In this document: one piece after another, positions 39,422 through 40,725 of the stretch | How the letters are laid out: every line of letters begins with the position of its first letter | Numbering within the stretch: the stretch's first letter is position 1 | Assembly: GCA_947480015.1 (NCBI GenBank) | Contig: CANKBS010000003.1 | Coordinates: 124,001-188,000, forward strand | Source: Sphingobacteriaceae bacterium | Lineage (GTDB): Bacteria; Bacteroidota; Bacteroidia; B-17B0; Aurantibacillaceae | Direction of reading: 5' to 3' | Length of the DNA: 64,000 nucleotides | Notes under the pieces: generated by a model | Databases searched by the model: none | What the model was told of the DNA's origin: nothing | Seen by the model: the letters and a program-made list of their open reading frames with translations, nothing else | Position numbers and translations under genes: made by a program

Positions 39422-39460
39422 ACGAAAACCCTTGTTATCAGAGGGTTTTCGTCGTTTTTT
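39422..39460 (+). terminator. intrinsic terminator of icmF
   Basis: Perfect 11-bp stem ACGAAAACCCT/AGGGTTTTCGT, 9-nt loop, then six T. It separates icmF from the operator cluster. Confidence 0.85.
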
Positions 39461-39492: not shown

Positions 39493-39572
39493 TGTCAACG
39501 TAATGACAAATTTTATACAAATTCTGTCATTATAATGACAATTTTTACACTAATTTTGTCACTATATTGACT
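39493..39572. promoter_or_regulatory. three phased 16-bp palindromic operators
   Basis: Sites at 39493-39508 (TGTCAACGTAATGACA), 39525-39540 (TGTCATTATAATGACA, perfect palindrome) and 39557-39572 (TGTCACTATATTGACT). Starts are exactly 32 bp apart, about three helical turns, so all would face the same side of DNA. The third overlaps the predicted -33 of the ATPase promoter. The pattern fits a dimeric repressor binding cooperatively. The protein that binds is not identified; the ATPase itself has no clear HTH. Confidence 0.75.
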
Positions 39573-39587
39573 AAATTAGTATATTTG
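39555..39587 (+). promoter_or_regulatory. predicted promoter of the DUF4143 ATPase gene
   Basis: TTTG (39555-39558), 21 nt, then TATATTTG (39580-39587), an exact TAnnTTTG box. Transcription would begin near the GTG start at 39592, so the leader would be absent or only a few nt. Confidence 0.6.
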
Positions 39588-39591
39588 TGGG

Positions 39592-40725
39592 GTGGAAATA
39601 ATACGCATTCAACAATCAGAACTTCTCAAAAGTCTTAAACCTCAAAAGGTGACCCTCTTACTCGGCGCCCGCCGTGTGGGTAAATCGGTATTGATTGAAG
39701 CGCTTTTAGCAAACTATAAACGCCCTTATCTTTACCTCAACGGCGAAGATGAAGACACCCATCAACTTCTTGCTCAGCGCACGGTGAGTAATTACACGCG
39801 GGTTTTAAAAGGAAACGACCTGTTGGTAATTGACGAAGCGCAAGGCATTCCCGATATAGGAAAAAAACTCAAATTAATGGTTGATTCCTTTAAAGGATTA
39901 AAAGTACTGGTAACGGGCTCTTCTTCTTTTGATATTCTCAATATGTCGGGCGAGCCACTCACCGGACGAAGTAACACTGTTTACCTCTACCCTATCTGGC
40001 AAGGTGAATTAAAAGAAAATGCTTTACAAATAAAACAAAATATGGAAGACCGCTTGATTTACGGCTCTTACCCCGAATTGTGGCACTTAAAAACTGCTGA
40101 TGATAAAAAGCGTTACTTAAGTGATTTGGTGAATTCTTACTTACTTAAAGATATTTTAATACTCGACGGTTTACGCAATGCCTCCATTGTGTACAGCCTA
40201 CTTAAAATGATTGCTTATCAAATTGGCAAAGAAGTTTCTTACAACGAATTAGGAACAGCTTTGGGTATCAGTAAAAACACCGTAGAAAAATACCTAAACC
40301 TACTTACCAAAGTATTTGTATTGCATAAAGTATCAGCTTACAGCAATAATTTAAGAAAAGAAATTTCTAAAAGTCAGCGCTGGTACTTTATAGATAACGG
40401 TATTCGCAACGCCGTTATTGGCGATTTTGAGCCCATGGCCTTAAGACGAGATGACGACAAAGGCATGTTATGGGAAAATTATTTATTTATGGAACGTCTC
40501 AAACGGAACAACTACAAAAAACAAACACCCGAGTATTACTTCTGGCGCACCTACGATCAACAAGAAATTGATTTATTGGAACTAAAGTCTAAAAAAATTA
40601 AGGCCTTCGAATTTAAACTAAGCTCAAAAAAAACACCGAAGAAACCGATCGCTTTCGCAAAAGCCTATCCGGATGCCAGTTTCGAGGTAATTAATGATAA
40701 AACGTATTTGGATTTCATACTTTAA
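39592..40725 (+). CDS. AAA_14/DUF4143 family ATPase
   Basis: 377 residues. Walker A GARRVGKS at 25-32, Walker B LLVIDEAQ with Asp81-Glu82, then TGSSSFDI (sensor 1). ELGTALGISKNTVEKYLNLL forms a winged-helix-like segment, and the C-terminal DUF4143 nuclease-fold part has FWRTYDQQEIDLLELK and KAFEFKLS, resembling PD-(D/E)xK Asp/Glu-x-Lys positions. Function of the family is unclear; members are often multi-copy and have been linked to mobile or defence contexts. GTG start; three operators lie directly upstream. It is followed by a convergent epimerase gene. Confidence 0.88.
   Translation: MEIIRIQQSELLKSLKPQKVTLLLGARRVGKSVLIEALLANYKRPYLYLNGEDEDTHQLLAQRTVSNYTRVLKGNDLLVIDEAQGIPDIGKKLKLMVDSFKGLKVLVTGSSSFDILNMSGEPLTGRSNTVYLYPIWQGELKENALQIKQNMEDRLIYGSYPELWHLKTADDKKRYLSDLVNSYLLKDILILDGLRNASIVYSLLKMIAYQIGKEVSYNELGTALGISKNTVEKYLNLLTKVFVLHKVSAYSNNLRKEISKSQRWYFIDNGIRNAVIGDFEPMALRRDDDKGMLWENYLFMERLKRNNYKKQTPEYYFWRTYDQQEIDLLELKSKKIKAFEFKLSSKKTPKKPIAFAKAYPDASFEVINDKTYLDFIL

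Follow-up and report, generated by a model that had tools for sequence, protein, structure and literature searches.

Proteins in which an ATPase is fused to a PD-(D/E)XK-superfamily domain are described as the defence candidate PDC-S01, which is ranked fourth in frequency among the defences of prokaryotes, 29,494 instances being counted in bacteria and 9,986 in archaea (PMC12988326). The same paper states validation to be pending for most PDC candidates. In rumen genomes, 10,358 occurrences of PDC-S01 are reported (PMC13356809). The passages describing PDC-S01 in PMC12988326 and PMC13356809 mention no upstream repeats. A related gene, TT_P0211 (AAA_14, DUF4143), is reported to be more than 4-fold up with plasmid, and only when Argonaute is present (PMC4406477). 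Our search of the open-licence PMC literature, conducted mostly at title level, found no description of the array and no mechanism for PDC-S01. The protein family is already known as a defence candidate, and the array in front of the gene is new to the literature searched.

Results

A phased palindrome array in front of an AAA_14-DUF4143 gene

In the window, the whole 64-kb stretch of DNA that was analysed, an AAA_14-DUF4143 gene is preceded by three TGTCA-N6-TGAC(A/T) palindromes whose successive starts are exactly 32 bp apart (Table 1). The coordinates of the sites, their spacing and the perfect symmetry of the middle one were all as given in the first-pass annotation. At 0-1 mismatches the palindrome was found in the window at these three sites only. 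At up to 2 mismatches it was not enriched in the window (21 found compared to 26.7 expected), indicating that the signal is the array and not the single motif. In the 3.77-Mb genome, exact TGTCA-N6-TGACA was found three times, two of them at this locus; the reversed pattern, used as a control, was found once. The phased version, with 32-bp spacing and at most 1 mismatch, was found in one place, which is this locus (reversed-pattern control, 0). The region upstream of the gene gave 27/32 self-matches at period 32, compared to a maximum of 22 in 40 dinucleotide shuffles. The analysis supports what was first proposed, that the sites are real and helically phased operators.

The promoter was read according to the -33/-7 consensus of Bacteroidota promoters. 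A TTTG with the spacing of a -33 element, and presumed to be one, runs into the third palindrome, so that this site appears to overlap the promoter as had been claimed. The -7 box (TATATTTG) is also present, but the GTG start follows it after 4 nt rather than after 5 bp. A near-leaderless message is plausible for this gene; as a general trait it did not hold, with ~20 nt from box to start in several distant homologues when inspected by eye. Judged from the sequence, the proposal that the array controls this gene alone appears to be supported.

At L009 (G000:C4:154895-155305), the second DUF4143 gene of the source genome has no 32-bp array upstream. Just upstream of it lies an inverted repeat, CAACTAATTG...CAATTAGTTG, and words similar to this repeat are also found after the gene.

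Table 1. Features of the array, the promoter and the gene, in window coordinates.
Feature	Position	Strand	Basis or remark
Hairpin and T-run 3' of the upstream mutase gene	39422..39460	+	Inspection, unscored; sets the module apart
Operator 1, TGTCAACGTAATGACA	39493..39508	.	Sequence; array kept upstream of orthologues
A/T-rich half of first 32-bp unit	39509..39524	.	Weaker second dyad at centre, 16 bp from first
Operator 2, TGTCATTATAATGACA, perfect palindrome	39525..39540	.	Sequence
A/T-rich half of second 32-bp unit	39541..39556	.	Sequence; array-averaged dyad profile
Presumed -33 element TTTG, overlaps start of operator 3	39555..39558	+	Sequence; known consensus
Operator 3, TGTCACTATATTGACT, between presumed -33 and -7 elements	39557..39572	.	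Sequence
-7 box, TATATTTG (TAnnTTTG type)	39580..39587	+	Sequence
AAA_14-DUF4143 gene (PDC-S01), 377 aa, GTG start at 39592	39592..40725	+	Pfam, PADLOC; start backed by alignment
AAA_14 domain, residues 18-140; Walker A GARRVGKS, Walker B LLVIDEAQ	39643..40011	+	
Winged-helix region, residues 217-266	40240..40389	+	AlphaFold2 model; specificity scan
Recognition helix, residues 228-240, Ser227 just ahead	40273-40311	+	AlphaFold2 model; specificity scan
PD-(D/E)XK-type C-terminal domain, residues 287-377; E295, D327, E340, K342	40450..40722	+	Models, conservation

The gene product is a predicted ATPase with a nuclease-like C-terminal domain

Both Pfam domains of the protein scored over their curated cut-offs (in brackets), DUF4143 with 136.8 bits (28.1) and AAA_14 with 91.5 bits (27). 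An AlphaFold2 model built with 44 sequences (pLDDT 89.1) comprised an AAA domain, a winged helix and, at the end, a PD-(D/E)XK-like part; the helices of the winged helix are predicted at residues 217-224 and 228-240. The Walker residues K31, D81 and E82 were each present in 193/193 family genes (defined below), as were E295 and D327 (193 each); E340 was present in 189 and K342 in 192. An E...D...ExK signature made of these conserved residues is present on a helix-strand-strand-strand-helix-strand core, the order of the elements being taken from the models. The C-terminal domain modelled alone gave a pLDDT of 82.5. When this domain was used in a fold search against solved structures, no match was obtained at E <= 0.001; the matches were weak, the best being an R2 retrotransposon protein (E 0.064) and then Cdn1, with Can2, McrBC and Holliday-junction resolvases among the further weak matches. 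The AAA and winged-helix part matched 2qen and 2fna best and NLR/CED-4-type proteins next. A profile search against PDB sequences gave three matches, all to VCP-like ATPases over residues 16-62, and a PHROGs search gave a weak clamp-loader match and one unknown. The NCBIfam search of the protein gave no match.

PADLOC, in which PDC-S01 is a single-gene phage-defence candidate, matched the protein to the PDC-S01 model PDLC04789 (residues 1-376 on 1-373 of 375, E 5.5e-147), and the same model was matched by all 44 sequences of alignment A1, among them the window protein. Ten genes were then sampled, and the best fit was PDLC04789 for 4/4 array-bearing genes and PDLC04790 for 5/6 array-less ones; for the array-less gene L009, PDLC04789 and PDLC04787 fitted about equally. 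The first-pass suggestion of a self-regulated, defence-like module with an AAA/nuclease protein is consistent with the PADLOC match and with the co-variation of helix and operator described below. The defence role is that of a candidate, its one basis being the PADLOC candidate status of the protein.

Arrays recur across the AAA_14-DUF4143 family

In a first search for relatives (50 loci), similar tandem palindromes were found before most Bacteroidota homologues. All 11 near orthologues (L010-L020) scored 25-31 of 32 at period 32, with TGTCA-N6-TGACA or close variants, and more distant homologues often had CCGTCA-N6-TGACGG-like sites. Comparison of the regions upstream of homologues, suggested at the outset as a check, therefore gave a strongly positive result. 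For the family as a whole, an array was called at a self-similarity score of at least 23. The 193 genes scored come from this first search and from further genomes, and cover part of the places in the gene list used below; genes were left out beforehand where they had no P-loop pattern match or less than 150 bp upstream, or were duplicates over the first 200 residues from the P-loop. An upstream tandem array was called in 112/193 genes, and 81/193 were under the threshold. Of the array genes, 104 had a period of 32 and 6 a period of 33; the remaining two had periods of 28 and 37. In comparison, the same score was reached by 8/1411 background tiles from flanks and windows (period 32 in 2) and by 6/192 downstream regions (period 32 in 3). 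Together with the shuffles, these controls rule out a chance origin of the arrays. The source gene, initially described as an orphan, is no exception but one instance of an architecture found family-wide. Many other DUF4143 genes have arrays, but it is not the case that all of them share the operator word or even have an array.

The arrays are concentrated in one part of the family. With the window protein as BLAST query and period 32 or 33 required in addition to a score of at least 23, arrays were found in 13/13 genes at >500 bits, 6/8 at 400-500, 42/62 at 300-400, 42/64 at 250-300, 5/8 at 150-250, 2/30 at 100-150 and 0/8 at 50-100. Two exact GTCA-N6-TGAC sites 32 bp apart were present in 18/375 class genomes, and the reversed-pattern control was present in one genome (G421). 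Comparison of coordinates with the gene list placed these sites only beside an AAA_14-DUF4143 gene in 15/18 genomes. Three arrays lie away from a listed gene, namely a contig-end copy in G365, which also has array copies beside a gene, and the solitary arrays L261 (G299) and L262 (G019).

Outside Bacteroidota, at period 32, a Treponema plasmid gene (L278) scored 26/32 and a Desulfosarcina plasmid gene (L285) scored 20; L047-L052 and L054 scored 17-23, and Rhodoferax and Thermus homologues 16-17. A Bacteroides uniformis plasmid gene (L276) scored 32/32, and a phage-collection contig (L277) scored 22. A search of viral contigs gave 45 pattern matches, none of which was confirmed. Repeats of other kinds were also observed. 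An array-less homologue on a Runella plasmid (L288) has one long inverted repeat upstream, CAATATTAACATTGAAA...TTTCAATGTTAATATTG, and L070 has a different tandem array ~250 bp downstream of the gene, with short units around CCGATGGTAGCTGAG / CCGATGGTATCAGAG.

The period is constant while the operator word varies

Site geometry was examined in the GxRR clade (78 genes, being 81 less L009, L070 and L086). GTCA-N6-TGAC with at most 1 mismatch was found at least once in 60 of these genes and at least twice in 50/78, compared to two or more sites in 0/112 and a single site in 7/112 GxRQ genes. The spacing of successive sites was exactly 32 in 75/83 cases and 31 or 33 in none; the remaining 8 spacings were 4, 34, 64, 73, 113, 123, 159 and 176, once each. 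Within the 32-bp unit, the main dyad is accompanied by a weaker dyad 16 bp away, dyad pairing at +16 bp being 3.24 of 7 compared to ~2.0 elsewhere (mean over period-32 arrays). A TAnnTTTG box lies within 60 bp after the last site in 49/60 GTCA-type genes, compared to 3.2 expected from shuffles. The distance from the last dyad to the box was 15 in 12 genes, 16-18 in 6, 25-27 in 19, 46-48 in 8, 7 in 3 and 23 in 1. The main distance groups are separated by about one or three turns, and the 46-48 group may reflect one worn site.

Operator words vary between lineages and the period is constant. Other words were TTGGATT..AATCCAA (L191), TTTCGTTTTGAAACGAAA (L189) and GGTGATTATAATCACC (L226). The TGTCA word was ruled out as the defining feature, as it changes while the period stays.

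The predicted recognition helix co-varies with the operator

To relate protein to operator, aligned protein positions were ranked as predictors of operator similarity after overall identity had been removed, using the 100 genes that scored 24 or more with a period of 32 or 33 (4645 pairs). The best predictors were N229 and K228 in the predicted recognition helix, and this helix was also the best 12-residue stretch. When the scan was restricted to the GxRQ clade (46 genes, 1015 pairs), first rank again went to column 229, and the pre-set helix window (rho 0.180) beat 999/1000 permutations, which ignore the tree. A helix window starting at residue 225 reached a rho of 0.231 in this clade, and an ATPase-domain stretch from residue 102 came near the pre-set window with 0.177. 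When it was restricted to the GxRR (GTCA) clade (54 genes, 1146 pairs), 888/1000 permutations were as high as the helix window, which was thus not predictive there, and stretches 186-200 and 249-260 outdid it. This failure is expected because the core word is constant in the clade, and it is a result against the generality of the co-variation. Some correlation between helix and operator is also expected without binding, because operator and protein are linked and share common ancestry.

The column scan was set beforehand, whereas the classes of helix and of word were drawn post hoc. In these post hoc classes, exact GTCA-N6-TGAC was found with 55/64 SKNT-type helices and in 3/129 other genes. 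The D-type class (xDKNT[VI][SAIG]) was loose, with exact GTGAAT-N2-ATTCAC in 5/15 and GTGATT-N2-AATCAC in 2/15. One gene of the GTCA clade, L178, has Asp in place of Ser227 and no GTCA-N6-TGAC; its sites, ATGAATAAATTCAC, GTGAATGAAATCAC and GTGAATAGGAATGC, are imperfect and GTGAAT/ATTCAC-like. Of the GTCA-type proteins compared with it, the window protein (51% identity) and L035 (52%) are nearest to the L178 protein; identity to L182 is 48%, and to six D-type proteins 40-42%. L178 appears to represent a natural change of specificity, Ser227 to Asp. The regulator that binds the array is likely the gene's own product, because the recognition helix co-varies with the operator and because of the swap in L178. 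On the same grounds of co-variation, the first-pass statement that no regulator gene lies next door is probably mistaken.

We also considered whether the array is an orphan target of some global regulator. This reading is disfavoured, as the source genome has no further arrays, and a single array gives no sign of another regulator's regulon.

Paired, solitary and tandem arrays

A second array lies downstream of 8 genes (L017, L018, L020, L044, L128, L188, L206 and L251), which were chosen by eye among downstream scores of at least 20 at period 31-33. Four of these downstream arrays (L018, L128, L188 and L206) resemble the upstream array of the same gene more than any of 111-112 others. The own upstream array ranked 8th for L017, 9th for L020, 11th for L044 and 30th for L251. 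The solitary arrays L261 and L262 are of the GTCA type and have no DUF4143 gene beside them; that of L262 lies between genes that we take, from their translations, to be xseA-like and xseB-like. REP/RAYT-like dispersal of the array was not observed; the source genome has one array only, and G299 and G019 have one solitary array each.

In G365 (L128, L279-L284; C280, C235), the array lies within a ~153-bp unit that is repeated in tandem around the gene. Dispersed copies were ruled out in this genome, the copies being local and in tandem, with one at a contig end. At L232 (G135:C10), which has two divergent DUF4143 genes, the array in front of the + strand gene is of the GGAAT/ATTCC type, and there is another like it past the end of the - strand gene.

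Of 30 same-genus loci compared, 6 (the source locus included, two seen in part) have the gene no more than ~1 kb from the mutase, and in two same-genus loci mutase and epimerase are adjacent and the AAA_14-DUF4143 gene is absent. The gene is ~2.3 kb from the mutase in G001, and G003 has a 61% copy on a contig other than that of its mutase. No clean insertion or target-site duplication was readable at the mutase locus because the flanks have diverged. Homologues were also found on plasmids and phage-collection contigs. A Bacteroides finegoldii plasmid record (L274, 2628-9239) has a homologue of 53% identity located after an RteC-domain gene. The stretch in which they lie bears tet(Q) and resembles CTnDOT-type elements; the region upstream of this homologue scored 22/32 at period 33.

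Discussion

We consider it probable that the palindromes form an autoregulatory operator array, which the gene's own ATPase binds cooperatively at three-turn spacing and through which it represses itself. Dimers of the AAA ATPase / winged-helix / PD-(D/E)XK protein would each bind one palindrome via the recognition helix. With 32 bp, or three helical turns, between sites, neighbouring dimers would lie on the same face of the DNA and could cooperate through their ATPase parts. Binding over the promoter would repress the gene and so keep a potentially harmful nuclease scarce, and loss of binding, for example through a change of ATP state or a phage or DNA signal, would lead to derepression. The argument for repression is the position of the last operator, which runs into the -33 region and keeps preferred distances to the -7 box. 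The same protein could also bind the array and activate its own promoter by positive feedback, and the preferred spacing of 15 and 25-27 bp before the -7 box does fit a face-of-helix placement that activators can use. At the source locus and in near orthologues, however, site 3 is flanked by the presumed -33 element on one side and the -7 element on the other, a typical position for a repressor, and activation seems to us very unlikely. Palindromes of this size suit many dimeric repressors and no regulator was noted next door, so a separate host transcription factor might bind the arrays, with the ATPase a mere target gene. That the lineage-specific words track the ATPase's own recognition helix would be unexpected for a common factor, and the one array of the source genome leaves no visible regulon; we give this explanation little credence.

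REP palindromes serve RAYT genes, and the arrays might likewise mark, in cis, the ends or the address of a mobile or selfish unit and be acted on by its ATPase-nuclease, with autoregulation secondary. This would accommodate the 8 genes with a downstream array, of which four have it closest to their own upstream array, as well as the solitary arrays L261 and L262, the sporadic occurrence of the gene at same-genus mutase loci, the G003 copy on another contig and the homologues on plasmids and phage-collection contigs. Yet in most of the 112 array genes the array was seen upstream alone, over the promoter; neither a target-site duplication nor a clean empty site is readable; the closest copies keep the mutase neighbourhood and do not scatter; and G365 has its extra copies as local tandem repeats, with one more at a contig end. 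A mobile unit as the primary explanation is thus unlikely. The second downstream array of the 8 genes is beyond what simple repression needs, and paired and solitary arrays and the sporadic gene keep a mobile or platform role in play. A platform role is a tentative idea, which we hold possible but rather doubtful: an ATP-driven polymer of PDC-S01 would assemble on the array as its private platform, one protein would serve as sensor, repressor and nuclease, and infection would trigger release from, or growth beyond, the array. The lineage-specific address would travel with the gene, and paired or solitary arrays would then suggest that gene and address travel as a unit.

An autoregulatory operator array, the reading we prefer, would give PDC-S01 a testable regulatory circuit together with a natural specificity change (Ser227 to Asp). 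Being conserved in cis, and with a recognition code that can be read, the array offers a concrete candidate DNA target for the PDC-S01 family, and the rigid 32-bp spacing limits how an ATPase oligomer could sit on DNA.

Among known proteins, the AAA_14 + DUF4143 family (PF13173, PF13635) has both domains in common with the source protein but has the array in part only, with 2/38 genes at BLAST scores of 50-150 to the window protein. The archaeal ATPases SSO1545 (2fna) and PABY2304 (2qen), which we take to be STAND-like, match the model of residues 1-277 with Z of 16.3 and 16.7 over 258 and 256 residues, at 23% and 20% identity to the source protein. Iterons, parS/parC centromere arrays and the autoregulated operators of toxin-antitoxin and C-protein genes are likewise phased repeats next to the gene of their binder, which here is a presumed one. 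Autoregulated operators are therefore a known kind. Compared to iterons, parS and toxin-antitoxin operators, what appears unusual here is that the presumed binder is an AAA-nuclease protein, that the ruler is a rigid 32-bp period, and that the recognition code has diversified into words particular to each lineage.
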